Below, one piece after another: positions 4,265 through 23,078 of a DNA stretch of 64,000 bases (its first letter is position 1; each line of letters begins with the position of its first letter). The notes beneath the pieces are model-generated. The model was not told the origin of the DNA, did no database searches, and worked only from the letters and a program-made list of their open reading frames with translations. The position numbers and the translations under genes are program-made. Source of the DNA: Phycisphaerae bacterium (GTDB lineage Bacteria > Planctomycetota > Phycisphaerae > UBA1845); the NCBI GenBank assembly GCA_028289375.1, contig JANQQK010000038.1, positions 1 to 64,000 on the forward strand. Direction: 5' to 3'.

Positions 4265-4687
4265 CACGCTGTTTGGTACCAAAACTCAGCTGAGGTGAGA
4301 AGGCCGTCGACTTCGGCAGTTGGCGATCCAAGTCCAACTGCATACTTGATCCTTGTCTTGAGCGTATTCCAGATCATCGTGGACCACTCGCAGTCAATCC
4401 AATGAAGGAATATTTCGCGCGTCCGGTGTTTTCGGCCAGACGCTTGACTCATCCGGCCGGGCGGTGTGCACGGACATTCTGGAGTGTTGTGCGCGAGTTC
4501 TCGCCACCTCATGACGTGGCCCCGCCCTTGGTCCACCTCTTAAGTTAGTTTTCGTAGTGCTGGAGCTCACCCGAGCGACTTCAGGCAACTTCGGCAAACG
4601 CCAGTGGACGCAATGCCCATCAACTCAACCGCGCGCAACTCCTTGCGATACTTGAGGATGTGCTTGAAAAGGCGGGACTTACGGAAC
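4265..4687. other. Gene-free stretch
   Basis: Spacer between the giant surface protein and tRNA-Thr. The tail of the integrase reading frame enters it from the right (stop at 4620). No other convincing coding sequence, repeat or terminator was seen. Confidence 0.5.
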
Positions 4688-6137
4688 AGCCACCGGTGGG
4701 ACTCGAACCCGCAACCTGCGGTTTACAAAACCGCTGCTCTGCCAATTGAGCTACGGTGGCATTGTGGCCGTCAGTGGGCGACACGGTGCGACCCGCCCCG
4801 CACGTAACCGACTGCGACGGTAGGACTTTAGCACAGCTTCCCACCCTTGGCGAGTCCCCATCATTTCCCGAACGTCCGACATCAGCCGACTCCGCACGAC
4901 TGCCTCCGAAATGCCCCGTCTGTACAACACTGGTGCAACACCCTGTCTCGATCTCGTCGACGTCGTACGTTCCTGTGGCACGCATCGAATCCCTGTCCGG
5001 TCCTCGGTCAGACAGGTCGGGCAGCACGCTCGGCGCATTTGCGACGTCGCCGACAGCGCGGTGGGTGTATCTATCCATCGTCAGGCCGATCGTTGAGTGA
5101 CGGGCGAGGATTTGAGCGTCCTTCGGGTGTACGCCGCCACTCGCTAGGTTCGTGACGAATGTATGCCGCAGTGCGTGAAAGTCAGCGTATCTGCCTGCGC
5201 TGTCCACGTACGCAATACCTGCCGCTTCCAAGTCAGCCTTTAGCATTCGCGCGCCTCGGTCTTTCCAGAATCGAAACGGATGCACATCGTCACCCAACTC
5301 ACGGACCAACTCGGTCACTGTCTTCGCTGTTGCCAGTCGCAGGGGAAGCTCGCAGGTTTGACGGTTCTTCGTATATGCCGCTCCCACCGTCACCATTGGC
5401 TGGTCGGAATCGAAGCGGAACGACACGGGCGTCAATGTGCGACACTCCTCGGCCCGCAAGCCCGTCTCGCAAACGAGTTGATACAGAATCGTTCGCACCG
5501 GTCCATCGAGACCGTAACGCCGGGGCTGTGTTCGAGTGACAGTGAGTAGTGATCGAAGTTCATCAGCCGTGAGCGATCGGCGGTCATGTCGACGATCGGT
5601 GCGCGTGTTGAACCCCGACAAGTGAGCGATCGGACTTTCTGGCGCTCGGCGATCCGCAACCATCCATTTTGCAAATTGCTTTATGGCTTGCAGGTAGAAA
5701 TTCGCTGTCTGTGCTGACTTGCCCCCATCGCGCAGTGTCTTCAAGAACCCCTGAACACGCGACGCGGAGATGTCAGACCAAGCGATAAACCTGCACCCAT
5801 TAACGATCGCCGTCGCTCGTGTCTTGAGCAGCCCGGCATGTTTCGGCGCATTCCCCTTTCCTCGGAGCGCTGCGTGCCAGTCCTCGATATGATCCGCGAG
5901 TGGTCGGCTTAGTTCCTTCTCGAACGGGTTGACCAGTCCTGCCGATTCCTGATGCGCTCGATGGATTGCGTCAGACAGAGCGAGTTGGGCAGATTTGCGA
6001 TCCTGCGTCTTGAGCGAGATTCGGACACTTTCGCCCGTACGTGGATCGCGAAACGATCCCCACCAGACGGATGATTTCTTGCGAGTCTTTCGCCCGTGCT
6101 TGTCGCTCCGCGTGACCGTTGGTCGATACAGTCCCAT
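4620..6137 (-). CDS. Tyrosine-type site-specific integrase
   Basis: Phage-type tyrosine recombinase that would integrate and excise the element at tRNA-Thr. 505 residues. There is an N-terminal arm-binding/SAM-like region (about 1-185) and a catalytic domain (about 190-370) showing the first Arg in ETGLRAEE, HALRHT for the H-x-x-R motif, then LARHST and the Tyr nucleophile in MDRYTH. The residues after about 380 are a low-complexity tail. Its frame runs through the attL repeat and the antisense of tRNA-Thr (translation TVAQLAEQRFCKPQ) and stops in chromosomal DNA at 4620. The last residues are therefore supplied by the insertion site. The start ATG at 6137 is one base from the stop of the XRE gene, so the two are probably co-transcribed. 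Confidence 0.9.
   Translation of the reverse strand: MGLYRPTVTRSDKHGRKTRKKSSVWWGSFRDPRTGESVRISLKTQDRKSAQLALSDAIHRAHQESAGLVNPFEKELSRPLADHIEDWHAALRGKGNAPKHAGLLKTRATAIVNGCRFIAWSDISASRVQGFLKTLRDGGKSAQTANFYLQAIKQFAKWMVADRRAPESPIAHLSGFNTRTDRRHDRRSLTADELRSLLTVTRTQPRRYGLDGPVRTILYQLVCETGLRAEECRTLTPVSFRFDSDQPMVTVGAAYTKNRQTCELPLRLATAKTVTELVRELGDDVHPFRFWKDRGARMLKADLEAAGIAYVDSAGRYADFHALRHTFVTNLASGGVHPKDAQILARHSTIGLTMDRYTHRAVGDVANAPSVLPDLSDRGPDRDSMRATGTYDVDEIETGCCTSVVQTGHFGGSRAESADVGRSGNDGDSPRVGSCAKVLPSQSVTCGAGRTVSPTDGHNATVAQLAEQRFCKPQVAGSSPTGGCSVSPAFSSTSSSIARSCARLS
4688..4760 (-). tRNA. tRNA-Thr(TGT), integration target
   Basis: On the minus strand a 73-nt cloverleaf can be drawn. The acceptor stem is GCCACCG/CGGTGGC, the D stem GCTC/GAGC, and the anticodon stem GCGGT/ACCGC with loop TTTGTAA, so the anticodon is TGT. 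A T arm with TTCGAGT loop is present, with T as discriminator. One T-stem pair is a C.A mismatch. CCA is not encoded. The 5' half (4715-4760) is duplicated at 22938-22983, which marks this gene as the attachment site of the element to its right. The intact gene is thus a hybrid of a chromosomal 3' half and an element-borne 5' half. Confidence 0.9.
4715..4855. repeat. Left attachment repeat (attL-like)
   Basis: Matches 22938-23078 at 135 of 141 positions counted by eye. It begins at the CCTGCGG next to the tRNA anticodon arm, runs through the 5' half of tRNA-Thr and about 95 bp of its upstream flank, and ends at GGCGAGT. The six mismatches indicate that the two copies came from different sources (element and chromosome). 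It is not a recent simple duplication. Confidence 0.9.
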
Positions 6138-11089: not shown

Positions 11090-11417
11090 CAGTCGATTCT
11101 CCGCTGAATCAGTTTGAAACACGCCAAGGTCGAACCAACGTGCGCACGAAAAAGGGGAGCCGCCGAAGTCGGTCCCCGTGCGCAGGCCTACGACAGCCCG
11201 GTACCAGAGACGCCCCGACGGACTCCCGTTTCGGGAGTCCGCCCAACGCATCCGTCTGGTACCGTTTGACGTGTCGTAGTTTGCGCACGGCCAGGATGCT
11301 TGGTCAGACCAAGATTCGATTTGTGTTAGATCGCTACGTCATTTGTTTTCCATCGTCACGATGCTCAAGACTGCTCGCCCACGGAGCAACCGATACGCGA
11401 CTGAACGAGCTGCCGTC
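11090..11417. other. Gene-free leader with large nested inverted repeat
   Basis: Spacer between the small zinc-binding gene (stop 11418) and the zinc-ribbon membrane gene. Its main content is the 111-nt nested inverted repeat at 11178-11288. No coding sequence is convincing. Confidence 0.6.
11178..11288. repeat. 111-nt nested inverted repeat
   Basis: Four nested stems, from outside in: GTGCGCA/TGCGCAC, CTACGACA/TGTCGTAG, CGGTACCAGA/TCTGGTACCG, and GGACTCCCG/CGGGAGTCC with a TTT loop. Short asymmetric bulges separate the stems. Folded on either strand this is a single long hairpin. It could be a structured RNA, a cruciform or replication signal, or a small non-autonomous element. Confidence 0.75.
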
Positions 11418-11989: not shown

Positions 11990-12981
11990 GCCAGTATTCT
12001 ATCGTAACGGTCGCCCCCGATCGAGGTGAACGACAACAGCACTGCCAAGTCGAGCTGTTGATTGGGTTTGTTTGATGGAATCTATGCCCATTGGACTATC
12101 GTGCCGACTGGCCACATACTTGTCTCGTCGGTCACCGTCGGCTTGGAGATCGCTCAGCGTGACAAACTTGATCAAGACCAATTCGCGAATGGCTGAGTCC
12201 TCAATCTACGCACTTCCAGCACTGCGCAACTGCCACGCCACTTGGCAAGAGCGCATCCGGCCAGCAATCTCAAGTATCACTCCGTGTTTTTCCAAGTATG
12301 ACGAGTGGTTGTCGTGGCACGTTCCGAGCGTTGACGAGATCATAAGACGCAGAAGCTCAACCTAGTACTTCGGTTTAGTTGAATCGCTGCACAGAACTCT
12401 GCACTCATTTCACGGACTTCCCAATAGCTCGGTACTTGCTTTGTGTGTGTTCTCACTTCCGAACCTCTTTTCATTGGCGGTTGCCGGTGGTACGAATCCC
12501 AGCGAACTGTGCGGGCGAATCGTGTTGTCCTCACATCCTCACGAACAAAGGAACGATGCACCGTTCAAGGTTGTCTGGTTAGCTGAATGAAGGTAGTCAT
12601 CGACTACCGAGGCCGGTGCGCTATCACAAGAACCACCATAAATCCAGAAGCGCCTTTGCGAAACTCCAGAAGTAGCGTATCACGTGTGGCCAAGTCCACC
12701 TGTGAATGTGGAGCATGAGGCATCACATCGTGGAGTAACGCCTGATCGTCAATGATGATAAAGTCGCCGTACGGAACACCACTGCTCAAGCTGATGAAGA
12801 CGACTCGCCTGACGCAAAGTTGTGATTAGCGGTAGCGTCAACGTTGGTGTATCGCGGAATACCGTGAACAAAGTAACGCCTGAGGGAATTGATCACGAAA
12901 AAGGTGACGCGGGGTACCGCTTCTTCCGCGATACGTCCGGCAAGGCCGCCTCCGGCGGCCCCGGCGCGGCTCCGCCGCGCC
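11990..12981. other. About 1 kb without a convincing gene
   Basis: Between the DUF5681-like gene and the 3' end of DGR target 1. Several short open frames exist. The best is on the minus strand at 12604-12789 (61 codons, containing VPYGDFIIIDDQALLHD), which has a protein-like composition but no clear start or family; it may be a gene remnant. The right end holds the target-associated hairpins. Confidence 0.4.
12944..12981. repeat. Tandem hairpins after DGR target 1
   Basis: Two adjacent inverted repeats: GGCCGCC-TCC-GGCGGCC (12944-12960) and GGCGCGGC-TCC-GCCGCGCC (12963-12981). The second abuts the TAG stop of target 1. Nearly the same pair follows target 2 at 15692-15729. In the Bordetella phage DGR, a hairpin just downstream of the variable repeat promotes retrohoming, so this is the likely counterpart; it could also act as a terminator. 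Confidence 0.75.
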
Positions 12982-13917
12982 CTATCCGGACTCGACCAGA
13001 GCACCAGCAGGACCTCGGGCAAGGCGGAAGCCAAGAAAGAAGCTGCGAACCGACGGGACGACCGCGTAACGGCACGCAGCACGGACGTCCCTCGCGTCAT
13101 CGACCCACGCGCCGCCGCGAATCACACGATCCGCGCCCAACTCAGTCGTTTCGGATGGATCAGCTACCGCATGTTCATCGTAGTCCCGAAGTCCGTCTGC
13201 ACACCACTCGTCCACGTTGCCGAGCATATCGTGCAGACCCCAGGCGTTCGGCTGCTTCGCACCAACAGGATGCGTTCGATTGTCGCTGTTGCCAACCCAC
13301 CAAGCGATCTCATCAAGCACGGACGACGCTTCCGAATCGGACTTCCATCCGCCACCATACGTCGCCGTCTCCGTGCCAGCCCGGCAGGCGTACTCCCATT
13401 CCGCCTCAAGTGGTAAACGCCAACCGTCGGATTTCAGCACATCCGCCAACCGCTCCAGGAACAACTGACAGTCCTCCCAAGACACTCTCTCCACGGGACG
13501 TGTGGTGTCCTGATCATCGGGGGTCGCGTCGCCCTGGAAATGTGATGGATTCTTCCCGTCCATCACCGCCGACCAGAGACCTTGCGTACAAGGAACCTCC
13601 CCCAACCAGAACCCATGCGTTATCGTCACAAGGTGACGAGGACCCTCATCTTCAAAGCGACCGGTCTCGTCCGACGGAGTTCCCATCCAGAACCGACCCG
13701 GAGGAATCCAACGAAGACGGTGACGAACATCACCAACCTCAAACCCTGCCCAGGGGCCATACTCATCCTCCCCCCACGCGGATGCCCAGGTTGGTGGCAG
13801 CCCGGTGGCGAGAGGGTGGTTGGCGCGCGTCTCACTGTTCAGCGTGGTATCCATGGCAGGTGATTGGTACGGACGCCGGCGAGCCTTCGCAACCGCATCC
13901 GCAGGCCCTACCAGCAC
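12982..13917 (-). CDS. DGR target protein 1, FGE/C-type-lectin fold
   Basis: 311 residues, a formylglycine-generating-enzyme (SUMF1/EgtB/PvdO) family domain over about residues 55-305. Visible family motifs are WIPPGRFWMG, PRHLVTI, GFWLGEVPCTQGLW, PVERVSWEDC, WRLPLEAEWEYACRAGT, WGLHDMLGNVDEWC and RVIRGGAW. The diversified segment (VR1) covers residues about 260-301 and ends with GFRLAR near the C-terminus, as in known DGR targets. There is no signal peptide or lipobox, so it is cytoplasmic. GTG 13917 has AAGGA seven bases upstream; ATG 13854 is an alternative. The two active-site cysteines of true FGE are not evident, so binding rather than catalysis is likely. Confidence 0.9.
   Translation of the reverse strand: MLVGPADAVAKARRRPYQSPAMDTTLNSETRANHPLATGLPPTWASAWGEDEYGPWAGFEVGDVRHRLRWIPPGRFWMGTPSDETGRFEDEGPRHLVTITHGFWLGEVPCTQGLWSAVMDGKNPSHFQGDATPDDQDTTRPVERVSWEDCQLFLERLADVLKSDGWRLPLEAEWEYACRAGTETATYGGGWKSDSEASSVLDEIAWWVGNSDNRTHPVGAKQPNAWGLHDMLGNVDEWCADGLRDYDEHAVADPSETTELGADRVIRGGAWVDDARDVRAACRYAVVPSVRSFFLGFRLARGPAGALVESG
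13014..13139 (-). repeat. DGR variable repeat VR1
   Basis: 126-bp copy of the template repeat (14006-14131) forming the 3' end of target 1. On the coding strand it differs from the template at 15 of the 24 template adenines and at only one non-adenine position. Fixed residues such as RGGAW and GFRLAR are conserved, while template Asn codons now read Val, Asp, Cys, Tyr, Ser or Phe. This is the mark of adenine-specific mutagenic retrohoming. Confidence 0.95.
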
Positions 13918-14005
13918 GCCGGTATCCTTCGTCGTTTCGCCGCTCGCACGAACGGGCGGACGCGATGAGGGTCGGGTCCGGTGCGGCCATCCAGCCGCGC
14001 CAGCG

Positions 14006-14131
14006 CTCGGGCAAGGCGGAAGCCAAGAAAGTTGTTGCGATTCGACGGGTCGTTCGCGTTGCGGTTCGCAGCACGGACGTTCCTCGCGTCATTGTTCCAC
14101 GCGCCGCCGCGAATCACACGATCCGCGCCCA
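14006..14131 (-). repeat. DGR template repeat TR
   Basis: 126-bp template between the reverse transcriptase (stop 14171) and target 1. Translated in the target frame it reads RVIRGGAWNNDARNVRAANR and continues with further Asn codons: nine Asn codons, seven AAC and two AAT, which can mutate to many residues without stop codons. Its 24 adenines are where VR1 and VR2 differ. Past its 3' end (plus-strand coordinates below 14006) the sequence diverges from the VR flanks, as expected for the IMH/IMH* distinction. Confidence 0.95.
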
Positions 14132-14170
14132 GGTGACCCTCACCGAGCACCATATTGTACGTCCCGATAT

Positions 14171-15178
14171 TCAGATGTCACATAGCTCTGTTGGAGTCAA
14201 CTCGCGCCGTCGCCACGCGACCACATCGGCGTGGGCGGTGACAGCGAGCGCGGCACCGACTCCAGACTGAAGCTGTCGCGCATCGATCAGCCCCAGTCGA
14301 TAGGCCGTTTCCCAACGCCGGCGGGCGCGGCGGTATCGACTGCGCCGACGGCGGGACAGCCCCAGGTGATTCGGAAAGACACGGAATCCCAGGAACGACA
14401 GTCCGGCGGTGCTTCGCTGGATCGGTGCGTTGTCATGCAGTTCGAGCCTCAGCGTCCGCGGCGTCCAATCCATGACAGCATCTCTGCTACGCTTGGCCTC
14501 GTCGCGCGTCCGCGTCCACCAGACCACGTCATCCATGTACCGGACCATACCAGGGACTTTGAGCCCCTCAAGCAGAAACCGGTCCAAGTCACCAAGGTAG
14601 GCATTGGCGAAACTCTGTGAAGTAAGGGCACCGATCGGCAGCCCGCGGCCGCGGCTGGTCTCGTGCGAATGGATAATGCGGGCGCAAAGACGAAGTAAGC
14701 CGGGCCCTTTGAATCTGCGCGTGAGAACGGCGATCAGCACCTCATGGCTGACTGACGCGAAAAACCGCCGCACGTCGATCTTGACGTACCATGGAAAACG
14801 GCGTGCATGAGCCTGAGCTCGTCGAACGGCGTTGAGACTGCCGCGCCCCGTTCGACAGGCGTAGGTGTCATCGACGAGCGAGCGGTCGAGTACTGGACCA
14901 ACATGTCTCATGAGAGCGTGATGAAGTACCCGTTCTCTAAAGCACGGCGCGTGAATAATGCGTGGCTTCGGGTCGAAAACACGAAACGACCGCATCGATC
15001 CGACGGACACGACTTCCGTCAGTATCGCGCGTCGCAGGGCGGTGAGTTCCGAGTCGAGTCGCGCTTCAAACGCGCAAACTGCAGGTCGGGTCCGCTTCCC
15101 GCGCGCCGCGCGCCAGAATGCATAAAGCAGGTTGTTCATCGCAGCGACGTCTTCCAGATTGGCGGCACTTCGTTTCAC
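14171..15178 (-). CDS. DGR reverse transcriptase
   Basis: 335 residues. RNA-directed DNA polymerase that would copy the template repeat into error-prone cDNA. Palm motifs in order: VKIDVRRFFASVS (first catalytic Asp), LPIGALTSQSFANAYL with the SQ signature of DGR and group-II-like RTs, RYMDDVVWW (catalytic YMDD) and LSFLGFRVF. There is no maturase/X or endonuclease domain, and the length fits DGR RTs. GTG 15178 is six bases after the stop of the HRDC gene; an internal ATG at codon 14 is a possible start. Confidence 0.95.
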   Translation of the reverse strand: MKRSAANLEDVAAMNNLLYAFWRAARGKRTRPAVCAFEARLDSELTALRRAILTEVVSVGSMRSFRVFDPKPRIIHAPCFRERVLHHALMRHVGPVLDRSLVDDTYACRTGRGSLNAVRRAQAHARRFPWYVKIDVRRFFASVSHEVLIAVLTRRFKGPGLLRLCARIIHSHETSRGRGLPIGALTSQSFANAYLGDLDRFLLEGLKVPGMVRYMDDVVWWTRTRDEAKRSRDAVMDWTPRTLRLELHDNAPIQRSTAGLSFLGFRVFPNHLGLSRRRRSRYRRARRRWETAYRLGLIDARQLQSGVGAALAVTAHADVVAWRRRELTPTELCDI

Positions 15179-15184
15179 CAGCGA

Positions 15185-15679
15185 CTAAAGCACTTCATCG
15201 GGCGGTTGTGCAAAGAGATTTTCCGGGGGTACTTGGTGAGACTCCGTATCGTTCAGCGCTTCGAGGAAGCGTTGGCCATACTTCGTAATCCGCGCAGGGC
15301 CCACGCCGTCGATCTCACGGAGTTGGTCTGTGTTTCGGACTTGTCGTCTGACCATTGTTGCGAGCTGTTCGTTCGTGAAAAGTGTATACGGCGGTACGCC
15401 CTCCTGCTCGGAAATCTCCTTTCGCAGTGCGCGTAGCCTGGCGTACACCTCAAAATCGGCAGGGGACAGAATCTGACGATAGTCGATGCGGCCCTTGACT
15501 GAGGGAGGCGTCGAATTCGTATCAAGGTAGGTTACGCAAATAGCCCAGGCGCTGCGCTCACCATCGGCGATAAAATGCCGGTCTATCGTGGCGATGCGGT
15601 GGCTCGCCAGGAATCGGTTCAATTCTGTTTCGGCTGGTTGGCTGGAGAGAATGGGGACAATCGCAAAGTGCAATCTCAT
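15185..15679 (-). CDS. HRDC-domain DGR accessory protein
   Basis: 164 residues from ATG 15679 (GGAG seven bases upstream). The C-terminal half is an HRDC domain (residues about 75-150: FEVYARLRALRKEISEQEGV, PPYTLFTNEQLATM, REIDGVGPARITKYGQRFLE), a nucleic-acid-binding module of RecQ helicases and RNase D. The N-terminal half (MRLHFAIVPI, HFIADGERSAWAICVTYL) has no recognised family. Located between target 2 and the RT in the position usually held by Avd. HRDC proteins have been reported as alternative DGR accessory factors, so a role in cDNA priming or strand handling is likely. Confidence 0.85.
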   Translation of the reverse strand: MRLHFAIVPILSSQPAETELNRFLASHRIATIDRHFIADGERSAWAICVTYLDTNSTPPSVKGRIDYRQILSPADFEVYARLRALRKEISEQEGVPPYTLFTNEQLATMVRRQVRNTDQLREIDGVGPARITKYGQRFLEALNDTESHQVPPENLFAQPPDEVL

Positions 15680-15691
15680 GAGACATCTCCG

Positions 15692-15729
15692 GGCCGCCTC
15701 CGGCGGCCCCGGCGCGGCTCCGCCGCGCT
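15692..15729. repeat. Tandem hairpins after DGR target 2
   Basis: GGCCGCC-TCC-GGCGGCC (15692-15708) and GGCGCGGC-TCC-GCCGCGCT (15711-15729, one end pair weak). They sit immediately after the TAG stop of target 2 and match the pair behind target 1. The whole 3' flank, about 80 bp including the last codons, is shared by both targets. Likely a DGR target-recognition structure. Confidence 0.75.
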
Positions 15730-18390
15730 CTACCCGGACTCGACCGGAGCACCAGCAGGACCTCGGGCAAGGCGGAAGCCAAGAACGAGGGAGCGAAACG
15801 ACGGGACGAACGCGAGGCGGCTCGCAGCACGGACGAACCCCGCGACACCGAGCCACGCGCCGCCGCGAAACACACGAACCGCGCCGAGCTCAGTCGATCC
15901 GGATGGATCGGCAACCGCACGCTTATCGTATTCTCGGAGCCCATCAGCACACCATTCGTCCACGTTGCCGAGCATGTCGTGCAGACCCCAATCATTCGGC
16001 CGTTTCGCACCAACAGGCCACGTTCGACCTTCGCTGTTGCCAGACCACCAAGCGATCTCATCGAGCACGGACGACGCTTCCGAATCCGACTTCCAACCGC
16101 CCCCATACGTCGCCGTCTGCGTGCCGGCGCGGCATGCGTATTCCCACTCCGCCTCAGTTGGCAAGCGCCAACCGTCGGCATTCAGCGCATCAGCCAGCCG
16201 ACCCAGAAAGCGCTGGCAGTCCTCCCACGATACCTGTTCCACAGGACGCACAGCATCCTGATCGTCCCGGGTCTTGTCGTTCTGGAGATACGATGGATTC
16301 TCTCCGCCCATCACCGCCGACCAGAGACCTTGCGTACACGGAACCTCTCCCAACCAGAACCCACGCGTGATCGTCACAAGGTGACGAGGGCCTTCGCGCT
16401 CCGTGCGATCGGTCTCGTCCAACGGAGATCCCATCCAGAACCGACCCGGGGGAATCCAACGAAGACGGTGACGAACATCACCAACCTCAATCTCGCACCA
16501 TAGGCCAGCCTCGTCCCGCCCCATGGCGCGGGCCCAGCTGGGGCGGTTTTCGGGGAGGCGTTCCCCACGTTGTTCTACTTGGATGCTCAATTTCTTCGTA
16601 CGATCCGTCGCGAGATGGATCGGCTTCTTGATGGGCACAAGGGGAATGCTCGCTCGGTCATCCTCCAACTCAATGGGGGGGGCCGTCCGATCACGGCCGG
16701 TCCAGATTTGGACCAAGGGGGCCCTCAACCAAAGCGTGGCTACGCGGCTTCGGGGGCCGCGTCCCTCCTGCACCGCGCCAGGTGGCGCGACGCAAAACCC
16801 ATCGGCATCCTGGTAGAGTTCCACCGTCCGCGGTCGTCCGCTTCGTCCGCGTGTAACGACGGACCAGTCAATGCCGGTTGGTGCCTCTTCTATAGATACG
16901 TCCTCATGGGCGGCAGCCCACAATGCCGCCAGCGCTTCGCGCGTCTTCTGGTTTTTCCAAAGGCTACCGGGAAGGCGCTTTACGAATTTGCGGATCCAGA
17001 CCGAGATGGCGGGTTTCTCTTGCGCTAGACTTTCCCTATCGAGTGCACGGGCCAGCGAACGAAACTGATCCACGGCCATGTTGATCTCGCTTTCGCGGAG
17101 AAACTGGGCGACATTGCCTCCGTCTTCAGCCCAAAGTGCTAGCACTTCTTCCAACCATATCCAGGCCTGTAGAGGACTGTGCCAGTTACGCATGAGCCCA
17201 ACGACGTATTCCGCATCTGGATGCGATGCAAAATCGGGCCAACGCATCCGCGCGGCTGAGCGTTTCAACACTGCCGTGCCGGACAAGTCACCCATCACAT
17301 CGGCATGGTGCCACACATCGTGTTCCAGGCCGACGCCGGCACGGTGCTGCGGCAGCAGTGTTCGGACTGCTCTCAGAAAACCAGGCTCTATCCTGGTGGC
17401 GAAGGAAAGCAACGTCAGTATCCCGTCAAGCGTTTTGCGATCCCCCTGCCGGTCTGCCCCCACAACCGCCACCGGGCTGGAACTCCGATCCCAAAGCCGC
17501 GCATGCCACAGCCTGGCGTTGGATGTTGACCAGCGATCGGCGGGGGCGGGGACCAGTGCGGCTCGTTCGACCCACTCGCGCTTCAGCCTCGCACCCAGCG
17601 ATTGCCAGGCTCTTGCTTCTGATCCTCCGGCATACGCACCGAGATCGCTTAGTGCCAGAACGGCCGGAGCATTGACGATTTCGCTCGCCAGCAACTGAAC
17701 GGCGCCAGGCGACAGGCCGTGGGGAAGGTAACGAGCGTCGATCGTACCACCCAAACAGCGGCCAACTCGTTCGAGCAAATCCTTCTGATCCCGCCAAAAT
17801 GGCATGAGACGGTCACTGCGATCAACCAGCACAATAGTCTGCGTGGACCATCCGCGGCGCGGTCGCCGCGGGATTCGATGAAGCACTTCCATCCGGCTCA
17901 CGCGGCGGATGGCCGCGCGGACGTCCACATTGCCGCGTCCACGGCGTCGCATGGCCTTTTGCAGGTACGGTTCAAGCCTTGACCAGGACGTTAACGGCGG
18001 TTTGCGTGGTTGCGGATCCCTGGATCCCGGTCGAACCAGTTCATCCGGTGCCGTCGGCGTGACACCTGCCAGAAACTCATCGTCATCGCCCTCGTCATCC
18101 ATGCCAAACGGGTGGAAATTGATTTCCACCGGCATCAAGAACGGTACCGGTTTAAGTTCAGGCCGTTCCGTCGGGACTTCTTCGGCTGCAGGGGTGGCGT
18201 CGACAAAATCTTTCGGGGTGCTTGCACGCACTTCCGGCTCGCGTCTCGGCGATCGTCGATAGAGCCCCATCAACTTGGCGCCGTTATCTACCAACTTGGA
18301 GTGTTCGTCGGGATCGACGTCCATGTCATCGACGGCCGCCAGCCATTGTGCCAGATCGGCGAACCCGACTTTGCTTTTGGGCGGTGTCAT
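15730..18390 (-). CDS. DGR target protein 2: vWA-like plus FGE-fold receptor
   Basis: 886 residues. An acidic, Pro-rich N-terminus (1-130) is followed by a region beginning RRGWSTQTIVLVDRSDRLMP (about 180-330) that looks like a von Willebrand A domain with a degenerate metal site. A long helical region follows (about 330-520), then a beta-rich linker. The formylglycine-generating-enzyme/C-type-lectin-fold domain spans about 625-880 (WIPPGRFWMGS, GFWLGEVPCTQGLW, WRLPTEAEWEYACRAGT, GLHDMLGNVDEWC). VR2 covers residues about 835-876. The start overlaps the MoxR stop (ATGA). No signal peptide: cytoplasmic. Known systems pair MoxR ATPases with vWA proteins, so this is probably the diversified recognition partner of that ATPase. 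Confidence 0.88.
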   Translation of the reverse strand: MTPPKSKVGFADLAQWLAAVDDMDVDPDEHSKLVDNGAKLMGLYRRSPRREPEVRASTPKDFVDATPAAEEVPTERPELKPVPFLMPVEINFHPFGMDDEGDDDEFLAGVTPTAPDELVRPGSRDPQPRKPPLTSWSRLEPYLQKAMRRRGRGNVDVRAAIRRVSRMEVLHRIPRRPRRGWSTQTIVLVDRSDRLMPFWRDQKDLLERVGRCLGGTIDARYLPHGLSPGAVQLLASEIVNAPAVLALSDLGAYAGGSEARAWQSLGARLKREWVERAALVPAPADRWSTSNARLWHARLWDRSSSPVAVVGADRQGDRKTLDGILTLLSFATRIEPGFLRAVRTLLPQHRAGVGLEHDVWHHADVMGDLSGTAVLKRSAARMRWPDFASHPDAEYVVGLMRNWHSPLQAWIWLEEVLALWAEDGGNVAQFLRESEINMAVDQFRSLARALDRESLAQEKPAISVWIRKFVKRLPGSLWKNQKTREALAALWAAAHEDVSIEEAPTGIDWSVVTRGRSGRPRTVELYQDADGFCVAPPGAVQEGRGPRSRVATLWLRAPLVQIWTGRDRTAPPIELEDDRASIPLVPIKKPIHLATDRTKKLSIQVEQRGERLPENRPSWARAMGRDEAGLWCEIEVGDVRHRLRWIPPGRFWMGSPLDETDRTEREGPRHLVTITRGFWLGEVPCTQGLWSAVMGGENPSYLQNDKTRDDQDAVRPVEQVSWEDCQRFLGRLADALNADGWRLPTEAEWEYACRAGTQTATYGGGWKSDSEASSVLDEIAWWSGNSEGRTWPVGAKRPNDWGLHDMLGNVDEWCADGLREYDKRAVADPSGSTELGAVRVFRGGAWLGVAGFVRAASRLAFVPSFRSLVLGFRLARGPAGAPVESG
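15762..15887 (-). repeat. DGR variable repeat VR2
   Basis: 126-bp homologue of the template in target 2. It differs from TR at 22 of 24 coding-strand adenines and at one other position. Encoded variable residues are mostly hydrophobic or small (Leu, Gly, Val, Phe, Ser), unlike the more polar VR1. It is more heavily diversified than VR1. Confidence 0.95.
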
Positions 18391-19394
18391 GAAAGGGACT
18401 CGTCGCGCGCGTGCTTATCAAGCGTGAACGCGGCGACCTCTTCGAGCAATTCAAGGCGCTGTGGCGCGTTTTTTCGCTGTTCAAACACCACGCGCACCAG
18501 GTCGATGAACTCCGCCTGCCCGGGCGGATTCAGACCGCGTTTGCGGACGGCCGTTCGTTCGCTGGCGACAAGTTCGGCAGCGCGTTGAAGGACCGACTTT
18601 TGACAACTCTGGAAATGAGCCTGCCCTCTATCGACCAGGAACGGCACAAGGTCATCCGGGAGTTCGATGCGCAACACGAGACAACGGCGGAGGAAGGCAT
18701 CTGGCAGAACGCGTTCTTCATTGGTGGTGATGATGACCAGCGGCGGGTAATCGGGATCCATGACCACTCCGTCTTTCGTACCCGGAGCATCAAAGTGACC
18801 GCTGCCGAGTGCTTCAAGAAGGCCATTGGGCACCGACGGATCAGCCTTATCGATCTCATCGAGCAGAACGACGCAGCGAGTCTTCGTCTCCTCATTGCTC
18901 CAATCACCCAATGGATGATCGGGCTTGGCCATTTGGATTTTCAGATCTTCTTCCAATGCGATGGCGGAGGAACCGTTGAAGGCCCACCACAACGGCCCGG
19001 GGCGAACATAACGACGTTCATCAAGCAGATCGCCCACGTTTTTCCCGTCTTTGTCGTCATTGCCGTCCAGCTGCGCCTGATGGCCGACAAGCTGCGCATC
19101 CGCGAGGCGGGCGACGGTATCCATGGTCCAGAACAGGTCGCGCGGTTCCGTTTGGGCATCGACGGTATGCGAAACGAACGCCCAGTTCATCAGGCTGGCC
19201 ACGGCTCGAGCAAGCTGGCTTTTTCCGCATCCCGGTTCGCCGCGAACAAGCAGTGGGCGTCGCGCGGCTAGAGCGGCGTTAACGGCGATGATCGAATCAC
19301 GATCAAATACGTGAACAGCCGCCGGCATGCCGCGCGTGGCCTTCAGCGGTTGCCGATCGCCTTCCGAAATCGTGAGATAATATTCTGATTCCAT
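18387..19394 (-). CDS. MoxR-family AAA+ ATPase
   Basis: 335 residues. Walker A GEPGCGKSQ (about 51-59), Walker B CVVLLDEIDKAD, sensor-1 IITTN and the downstream LPDAFLRRC with arginine-finger candidates. MoxR ATPases act as chaperone-like remodelers, usually of a vWA-domain partner encoded next door; here that partner is the DGR target 2, whose start overlaps this stop. A 14-base gap separates it from the upstream 413-residue gene, so all three form one operon. Cytoplasmic. Confidence 0.9.
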   Translation of the reverse strand: MESEYYLTISEGDRQPLKATRGMPAAVHVFDRDSIIAVNAALAARRPLLVRGEPGCGKSQLARAVASLMNWAFVSHTVDAQTEPRDLFWTMDTVARLADAQLVGHQAQLDGNDDKDGKNVGDLLDERRYVRPGPLWWAFNGSSAIALEEDLKIQMAKPDHPLGDWSNEETKTRCVVLLDEIDKADPSVPNGLLEALGSGHFDAPGTKDGVVMDPDYPPLVIITTNEERVLPDAFLRRCLVLRIELPDDLVPFLVDRGQAHFQSCQKSVLQRAAELVASERTAVRKRGLNPPGQAEFIDLVRVVFEQRKNAPQRLELLEEVAAFTLDKHARDESLS

Positions 19395-19408
19395 ACGAAC
19401 AATTACCT

Positions 19409-20650
19409 TTAGCTTTGCGTCGAAAACTCATCCCTGAGAATCAACAGGAAGGGATCCAGGGCAGCTTCATCTTCAGGTTCCCCTAGGGCAATAAGGTGAA
19501 GATTGGGTAGCTCTTGGCGAATTATTCTGACGTTATCGCGGGCGACCTGAGAGTCACTTGGTCGATAGACCGCGTAGTAGGCTGGATCGTCCTCCCGTCC
19601 GCGTTCATGCATCCGCTTCAGCCGCTTGTCCACCAATTTTGACTTCGGCACGAGCCCCATCTTTCCTTCGAGGTAACCGAGTACCTGGTTCAGGCAGTCG
19701 GTTGCTTCGAGTTGAATGCCTTGGTTGGGCCCTGGTACATCGTCTTCAGGATGCCAAAGCCGGATTCTTGACGAACCGACGATACCACTGCCTCGTTCTA
19801 CCTTGAACGTAGCAGGTCGTTTGTCATATGCTGCGACAACGATTTCGACGAGTGTTTCGATTGCGCACAATGGTTTGGCATCGCCCTCCAGCGCCGTCGT
19901 CAAATCAGCAATGTACCTTTGCCATTCGTCGTATACGGGCAAGATTGTGCAAACCAGTTTTCGAATACCATGAACGATACTTGGGTTGTCCATGCTGGCG
20001 TCGATAACGGCTTTCAAAATCCAACCGCGATGTTCGGCGGGCGACTGAACAAGCCAGTCCGCGAGTTCTTCGTCATTTTTCAATTCCTGATCTAACTCAG
20101 TTGGTAGTTTCCCACGAATTGCCGGGCCTAAATCTCTGTCCTTAAGAAGATTCGTGACGTTATCATCATGTTCATCCTCGACATATGAACGCCACTCGGG
20201 CGCATACAGGTCCACATCATCAACTGCGATTTGTGGTGCATTCATCTTTGTCTTTGGACACCAAATCAGGAAATGATACTGCTTATTTCCATTGACCGAG
20301 GCCAAACGAAGTCCCAAGTCAGAATCCGAAGGACATGCGTGTTCCTTTAGTACCTTAGAGTTAAACTTAGAAAGCCTTGTTCCAGTCGAATTGGAATTCC
20401 ACGCTGCATCCTTAACTTTTCGCGAAAGTTCCATGAGAGATGTAACCAATACCTGCCTTTGCGGCAAAGAGAAGACTGTCTCCAGGGCGTCGAACAGGAT
20501 TCCAAATTGTTTGATGTGTCTGTCGGTATCATATTCTTTGACGCACTCGTCGACCTTGGTTTTGAGATCTGCAAGCACGTCCAGGAAATACTCCTGCGTT
20601 ACGAATTTTGTACCACCCTTCTCCGCATACGGCGTTGCTTCTGATTGCAT
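19409..20650 (-). CDS. Unrecognised 413-residue first gene of the MoxR/DGR operon
   Basis: I do not recognise a family. The N-terminal ~100 residues are helical (DVLADLKTKVDECVKEYDTD), the middle is acidic and helical, and the C-terminal ~130 residues are mixed alpha/beta (SSRIRLWHPEDDVPG, LHLIALGEPEDEAALD). No signal peptide, membrane segment or obvious nuclease or protease motif. ATG 20650 with AGGA seven bases upstream. As the leading gene before MoxR and the vWA/FGE protein, it occupies the place of the third component (effector or VMAP-like adaptor) in MoxR-vWA ternary conflict systems. That assignment rests on context only. Confidence 0.75.
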   Translation of the reverse strand: MQSEATPYAEKGGTKFVTQEYFLDVLADLKTKVDECVKEYDTDRHIKQFGILFDALETVFSLPQRQVLVTSLMELSRKVKDAAWNSNSTGTRLSKFNSKVLKEHACPSDSDLGLRLASVNGNKQYHFLIWCPKTKMNAPQIAVDDVDLYAPEWRSYVEDEHDDNVTNLLKDRDLGPAIRGKLPTELDQELKNDEELADWLVQSPAEHRGWILKAVIDASMDNPSIVHGIRKLVCTILPVYDEWQRYIADLTTALEGDAKPLCAIETLVEIVVAAYDKRPATFKVERGSGIVGSSRIRLWHPEDDVPGPNQGIQLEATDCLNQVLGYLEGKMGLVPKSKLVDKRLKRMHERGREDDPAYYAVYRPSDSQVARDNVRIIRQELPNLHLIALGEPEDEAALDPFLLILRDEFSTQS

Positions 20651-21866: not shown

Positions 21867-22631
21867 TCAATTAGCGGTGGCGGGTTGCCAGCGGTCGGGT
21901 AGAAGATCGGCTAGTTGGTTGAAGGGGATGGCCGCAATGCGGGTAAGCACGTTTCGGAGGCAGGCCATGGGCACGATCTGGAGACTCTGGCGGGTGGCGA
22001 TCAGGTTGAACATCGTGGCCGCGGTGCGACCGCCGTTGTCCGAGCCGGCGAAGAGCCAGTTCTTGCGGCCGATCGCCACGCGGCGCAGCGCGTTTTCGCT
22101 GGCATTGTTGTCGATGGCCAGCCGCCCGTCGGTCGTGTACCCGCTAAAGGCCTCCCCCTGATTCAGCGCGTACTGGATCACCTGCCCTAACGGGCTCATG
22201 GACAGCTCCGGCCCGCCACGCTCGGCCTGCGGGTATTCCAGCCATGCCTTGAAGTCCGCCAGTCTCGGCCCCGACGACTCCTCTCGCAAACGAAGAAGAT
22301 TCTCAACGAGCCAATCGTGCAAGCGTCGATCGGACTTATGAGCGGATACTCTGTGGGAGAGCCGCGACATCGCTGCTTGTTTGGCTTGCTGCTTCACCTG
22401 ATTCTCGACGTTATACAGCAACTGGTTGTGCGCCAGTTCATCAGTGCTGGCCGCCAGATCGCTGCCCCGCGAATCATAGAACTTCCGCCGCGCATGCGCT
22501 CGGGACGCCACCTCCGTTATCTGGTGCTGGCGACACCACGACCGAACCGATTGCCTACCCTCGGCCTGATGACTCAGACGCCGCCGCCAAACCGACTCCT
22601 TCCGGAGATCCCGCGCTGCAACCTCGTCCAT
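21867..22631 (-). pseudogene. IS66-type transposase remnant, TnpA start fused to TnpC end
   Basis: One open frame of 254 codons. Residues 1-40 look like the beginning of the IS66 accessory protein TnpA (KESVWRRRLSHQ, SVRSWCRQH). From about 41 onward it is the C-terminal half of the DDE transposase TnpC (AHARRKFYDS, GRLAIDNNASENALRR, IGRKNWLFAGSDNGGRTAA, LADLLPDRW). The rest of TnpA, TnpB and the catalytic first half of TnpC are missing, so a large internal deletion joined them in frame. The ATG keeps a strong AAGGAGG site. Non-functional as a transposase. Confidence 0.85.
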
Positions 22632-22937: not shown

Positions 22938-23078
22938 CCTGCGGTTTACAAAACCGCTGCTCTGCCAATTGAGCTACGGTGGCATCGTTGTCGTCAGTGG
23001 GCGACACGGAGCGACCCGCCCCGCACGTAACCGACTGCGACGGTAGGACTTTAGCACAGCTTGCCGCCCTTGGCGAGT
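22938..23078. repeat. Right attachment repeat (attR-like) with half tRNA-Thr
   Basis: Second copy of the 141-bp repeat. It includes only the 5' half of tRNA-Thr (22938-22983, minus strand), so no functional tRNA is made here. It marks the right edge of the element and probably represents the original chromosomal 5' half and leader. Confidence 0.9.

Follow-up and report, generated by a model that had tools for sequence, protein, structure and literature searches.

The window, meaning the whole 64-kb stretch of DNA analysed here, carries on its minus strand a complete DGR with two targets (Table 1). Read along that strand, the order is MoxR-like ATPase, target 2, a hairpin pair, HRDC protein, RT, TR, target 1 and a second hairpin pair. 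The N-terminus of target 2 contains no domain recognised by Pfam, and upstream of this long target (18387-20650) lie two genes, one for the MoxR-like ATPase and one for a 413-aa protein that has no Pfam match.

Table 1. Features of the DGR locus in the window
Feature	Position	Strand	Basis or remark
Hairpin 2 of target 1, GGCCGCC-GGA-GGCGGCC, 7 bp	12944..12960	-	
Hairpin 1 of target 1, GGCGCGGC-GGA-GCCGCGCC, 8 bp	12963..12981	-	First base after stop TAG 12984-12982
DGR target gene 1, 311 aa	12982..13917	-	ORF, Pfam; FGE-sulfatase/C-type-lectin-like domain only
VR1	13014..13139	-	TR alignment
TR	14006..14131	-	Alignment to VRs
DGR reverse transcriptase (RT), 335 aa	14171..15178	-	Pfam RVT_1; LPIGALTSQ and YMDD motifs
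HRDC-domain accessory protein of DGR	15185..15679	-	Pfam HRDC, E 6e-19
Hairpin 2 of target 2, GGGCCGCC-GGA-GGCGGCCC, 8 bp	15691..15709	-	
Hairpin 1 of target 2, GCGCGGC-GGA-GCCGCGC, 7 bp	15712..15728	-	One base after stop TAG 15732-15730
DGR target gene 2, 886 aa	15730..18390	-	ORF; C-terminal FGE-sulfatase/C-type-lectin-like domain, Pfam FGE-sulfatase, E 1e-43
VR2	15762..15887	-	TR alignment
MoxR-like AAA ATPase, putative conflict-system partner	18387..19394	-	Pfam AAA_5, bpMoxR; directly upstream of target 2

We found that the RT carries the DGR-type SQ motif LPIGALTSQSFAN plus RYMDD, that its relatives are up to 58% identical, and that in a quick tree with open forks it clusters with the RTs of loci having adenine-specific TR/VR pairs. 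When compared with TR, 15 of the 16 mismatches in VR1 and 22 of the 23 in VR2 (scored over 15762-15885) fell at TR adenines, and the IMH-like 3' end of TR, TTCTTGGCTTCCGCCTTGCCCGAG, was identical in both VRs. A search of the genome revealed no further copy of the TR/VR repeat. With these RT motifs, adenine-restricted TR/VR differences, VRs at the 3' ends of the targets and an HRDC accessory protein, the locus is a real DGR. Its layout resembles that of the conflict-system DGRs of clade 5A (PMC10907252), in which a long target whose N-terminus is uncharacterised has a MoxR-like ATPase immediately upstream and is accompanied by a second, short target that is lectin-only; membership of this clade is assigned here from gene layout and not from the tree in that paper. 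Accumulibacter also has multiple related DGRs, and a word search of the same paper returned no mention of hairpins (PMC10907252).

The 5' portion of a tRNA gene (anticodon TGT; 4760-4688, minus strand) recurs as a 48-bp direct repeat (4715-4762 and 22938-22985). Together with an integrase-like ORF (4620-6137), this repeat bounds an island of about 18 kb in which the entire DGR lies, suggesting that the DGR may be carried by an integrative element.

The original prediction had placed paired GC-rich hairpins right after the stop codons of both targets, and this was confirmed at the positions given in Table 1. All four hairpins have a 3-nt loop, GGA on the sense strand, closed by a C-G pair on a stem of 7-8 bp made up entirely of G-C pairs. 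VR1 and VR2 have a common end point. Behind it lie 32 nt, the last three of them the stop codon, before the two hairpins, hairpin 1 starting 32-33 bp and hairpin 2 starting 52-53 bp from the VR (the BPP-1-type range being 4-34 bp). As DNA, each hairpin pair folds with -21.6 kcal/mol (z -2.5 and -3.6 vs shuffles). The template was correctly said to lack this flank, the corresponding stretch 3' of TR having no hairpin block and a z of only -0.3 in the same comparison. Within the 5-Mb genome, hairpin 2 has no copy with up to one mismatch, and hairpin 1 no exact copy, beyond the two targets; in a 311-kb sample of the same genome, searched on both strands, we found three GGA-loop hairpins of comparable strength, none of them paired. 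A known RNA family was considered and rejected, with no Rfam match at E values up to 1 over 12500-18500.

The 70 nt following VR1 and VR2 are identical at 67 positions (30 of 32 ahead of the hairpins and 37 of 38 within them), and beyond the hairpins identity falls to 13 of 50, so the paralogy of the two targets extends through the hairpins and ends there. The 3' flank had been described as far more conserved than the rest of the two genes. It does exceed the adjoining FGE domains, which are 82-85% alike, but "far more" was an overstatement, as only the N-terminal part is truly dissimilar. In other DGRs with multiple targets, the first 70 nt after the VR were alike at a median of 86.5%, vs 77.5% for the 150 nt that precede it, and identity had fallen to chance level 120-220 nt downstream of the VR. 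These identities fit a 3' module common to the targets. It is plausible that the hairpin block moves with targets as a cassette, and duplication of whole 3' gene ends explains the limit of the paralogy equally well. The two flanks in the window, being nearly identical, count as one case and not as two.

For a survey of related DGRs, RT relatives were gathered from the window's phylum, species-representative genomes, IMG/VR and the neighbourhoods of selected matches; the relatives on viral contigs came from an alignment search, a single-protein search having given none. TR/VR pairs were found by adenine-tolerant alignment, and the VR 3' flanks were then scanned for hairpins. We used a tolerant hairpin finder and a threshold-free motif count; detection of perfect stems missed hairpins with bulges or internal loops. 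As a positive control, the proven BPP-1 hairpin, GCGGGGCC-GAAA-GGCCCCGC, was recovered by the pipeline. Flanks belonging to a single DGR are related to each other and are pooled in some tables, and per-locus counts were made separately.

GNA-triloop hairpins were present in 34 of 114 cellular VR 3' flanks vs one flank with the strand-reversed loop, and among the controls, regions 3' of TRs gave 2/88, regions ahead of VRs 1/114, random positions 12/570 and shuffled sequences 1/570. Counted without any structural threshold in 98 cellular DGRs, the cap GCGNAGC had 117 matches and occurred on the sense strand of 78 of 131 VR 3' flanks vs 9 for the other strand, showing that the same hairpin class recurs behind the VRs of related DGRs. 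Per locus, the counts were 58 vs 4 (other strand) of 98, with p about 1e-15. The matches peaked 0-150 nt after the VR, at a density about ten times the background (0.6/kb elsewhere), and SCGNAGS caps with longer flanking stems (score 18) made up 26% in VR flanks vs 2% elsewhere. The closing pair was C-G in 53 of 61 GNA triloops and 42 of 44 tetraloops. Stems vary among the relatives, but position, strand and loop are kept, and in several bacterial relatives the hairpin lies inside the target gene, before the stop codon. Covariation in the stems was modest, with 18 pairing-preserving two-sided changes in aligned flanks vs 5-9 when the partners were slid, and does not count among our main arguments; about half of the related VR flanks had no hairpin above thresholds. 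Read by eye, other members of the window's RT clade have one long palindrome with internal loops and the same GC-GGA-GC cap; such palindromes take the place of simple hairpins in the VR flanks of loci L075, L076, L080 and L258. The reversed motif peaked inside VRs; this was considered as a pairing partner of the cap and rejected, since the peak represents coding sequence (VLR and RSA codons).

Phage DGRs gave a different loop. In the flanks of viral loci L155-L234, the cap GCGNNAGC was found in 37 of 67 vs 1, the triloop form being almost never seen; as hairpins, GNNA loops were present in 43 of these 67 flanks and GNA loops in none. The cellular loci with HRDC had 32 GNA and 0 GNNA hairpins, a link between triloop and HRDC that is confounded by host type (cellular vs phage). 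Another 9 flanks with GNA triloops came from cellular loci in which no HRDC was detected, this domain having been sought in relatives only via similarity to the HRDC protein of the window.

Flanks with GGA hairpins in tandem, from two to five of them, were met again chiefly within the window's RT clade (21 rows, SH-aLRT 100). For example, Candidatus Accumulibacter contiguus has one DGR with two and four hairpins behind its VRs and another with four and five, and in a second Accumulibacter genome the numbers are four and three; two or three hairpins are present in other relatives of the same family, and two in a gammaproteobacterial bin. Among the arrays seen, the longest belong to Accumulibacter DGR L266, whose two VRs are followed by four and by five GGA hairpins. 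By strict criteria, at least two hairpins were present in 13 flanks, belonging to 11 of 98 loci, and in none on the opposite strand. The doubling noted in the original prediction is thus real, and it is not unique to the window, being shared by these Accumulibacter relatives. Several arrays begin within the reading frame and extend past the stop codon, and because they run from coding into non-coding DNA, it is the nucleotides, not the protein, that are under selection.

The hairpins of the window were compared with those of known systems. Like the BPP-1 hairpin (PMC3240598), they lie just after the VR and the stop codon and have a GC-rich stem of 7-8 bp and a purine-rich G..A loop on the sense strand. 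However, the present system has a GGA triloop, two hairpins per target, an HRDC protein and a cellular host, whereas BPP-1 has a GAAA (GRNA) tetraloop, one hairpin, Avd and a phage host (PMC3240598). The likeness to the Bordetella phage hairpin that was originally proposed therefore does not hold for the loop, which has 3 nt in all four cases and not the 4 nt of GRNA. The hairpins of the DUSEL4 nanoarchaeal DGRs (PMC4372165) are also similar, having a 3-base GRA loop near the VR, but these are described as single in each DGR and as lying inside the target gene, whereas those in the window are double, follow the stop codon and belong to a bacterium. Among the open-licence papers searched, a GNA triloop has so far been described in DGRs only for the nanoarchaeal elements.

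Outside DGRs, the early promoter hairpins of phage N4 (PMC4496689) are likewise small, one-strand C-GNA-G DNA hairpins with the same closing pair and loop bases. They serve as promoters for an RNA polymerase; the analogy is one of a physical rule and not of homology. An N4 hairpin extrudes at physiological supercoiling only with the C-G closing pair and the G..A loop bases, and the two strands behave differently (PMC4496689). DNA minihairpins with GNA loops, in which G and A form a sheared pair, are exceptionally stable according to the work of Hirao and Yoshizawa as relayed in PMC6479982. The BPP-1 hairpin is necessary for efficient homing, its stem sequence being free and its loop sequence important (PMC3240598), and its removal reduces editing in E. 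coli severely, but not completely (PMC12875486). In addition, editing favours targets in which the lagging template is the strand complementary to the cDNA, and a model combining stem-loop and lagging strand has been presented (PMC12875486).

That the hairpins function as a DGR target-site element is, from their sequence and distribution, very probable. The proposal of a DGR recognition element was partly supported: the hairpins are found behind the VRs but not behind TR, keep to one strand, come back in related DGRs and do not behave as general terminators. The likeness to the Bordetella phage hairpin does not extend to the loop. Taken as a whole, we consider it likely that the four hairpins represent retrohoming target-site elements of a cellular HRDC-type DGR, doubled behind each VR and acting by extrusion. 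As their loops obey the C-GNA-G rule needed for extrusion in N4, we propose that the hairpins may open the 3' end of the VR and ready the sense strand. Under negative supercoiling, or with a passing replication fork, the inverted repeats would extrude, giving C-GGA-G hairpins on the sense strand and leaving floppy TCC loops on the other. The extruded hairpins would keep the VR 3' end (the IMH side) open, or mark that end for a protein, and the opened end would let the cDNA, mutagenised at adenines and complementary to the sense strand, anneal. With two or more hairpins in a row, opening might be likelier or last longer, or there might be more binding sites. Considered as a mode of action in its own right, extrusion followed by annealing is the reading towards which we lean slightly, by analogy with the systems above.

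The main alternative to DNA opening is that the hairpins are indeed DGR elements but act via a protein that binds the C-GNA-G cap, such as the HRDC protein or the RT, and not by holding the DNA open. HRDC domains bind nucleic acids in RecQ, and the cellular HRDC loci have triloops and not tetraloops, as described above. The loop sequence is critical in BPP-1 as well (PMC3240598), a point that also favours a cap-reading protein. The GNA triloops in flanks of cellular loci without detectable HRDC argue against it, and on balance we regard this mode of action as possible but rather unlikely, although a cap-reading protein can act together with opening.

Readings in which the hairpins are not DGR elements fared worse. 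Transcription terminators, or stabilisers of mRNA 3' ends acting solely as RNA, would account for very stable hairpins directly behind stop codons, but there is no T-run at the hairpins and a scan for intrinsic terminators was negative there. Such elements would also be common behind other genes, and the original prediction had named hairpins behind many unrelated genes as the mark of ordinary terminators; this is not so, the hairpin sequences being confined to two sites in 5 Mb and no pairs being seen in 311 kb. The bias of GNA over TNC loops fits RNA and DNA alike. With the hairpins of relatives often lying ahead of the stop codon, a terminator role is very unlikely. An RNA switch between target 2 and the HRDC gene, controlling translation of HRDC and RT and leaving the target 1 copy as a passive remnant of duplication, would fit the Shine-Dalgarno-like GGAG of the HRDC gene, which abuts hairpin 2 of target 2. 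However, the target 1 copy has no gene after it and yet keeps its hairpin bases nearly unchanged beside unrelated sequence, and in relatives hairpins are retained after either kind of target, making this explanation highly improbable, though the hairpin behind target 2 may have an RNA role at the HRDC ribosome-binding site. MITE-like stem-loops have been reported around Thiohalocapsa DGR loci (PMC10907252), and the hairpins of the window sit in an island with an integrase, both of which would suit mobile palindromes (REP or MITE-like) landed by chance at the 3' ends of targets. Such palindromes would hardly be limited to two copies in the genome, both at VRs, nor would relatives with different stems keep position, strand and loop; the REP/MITE reading is already largely refuted, and we judge it extremely improbable.

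Of the steps in DGR biology, it is the way in which the mutagenised cDNA finds and enters its target that still awaits an explanation, and among target elements the hairpin is understood least. A class with multiple hairpins and another loop size provides natural variants for asking whether loop size, sequence or copy number sets targeting. As a tentative generalisation, which we would not yet favour over its opposite, cellular DGRs might form a class in which one to five C-GNA-G triloops in tandem mark each target site, as against the single C-GNNA-G tetraloop of phage DGRs; loop length might then be a recognition switch tracking HRDC vs Avd, and copy number might tune diversification for each target. 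As a simple rule, GCGNAGC on the sense strand no more than 150 nt from a VR may aid in finding targets, including remote ones.

Two further features were observed near the DGR operon. A near-perfect inverted repeat of about 115 nt (11170-11300), with an RNA fold of -73 kcal/mol (z -6.5), is single copy in the genome and has no Rfam match. Beside the operon and inside the island, a remnant of an IS66-like transposase, judged by looking at the sequence, lies at 21867-22631.
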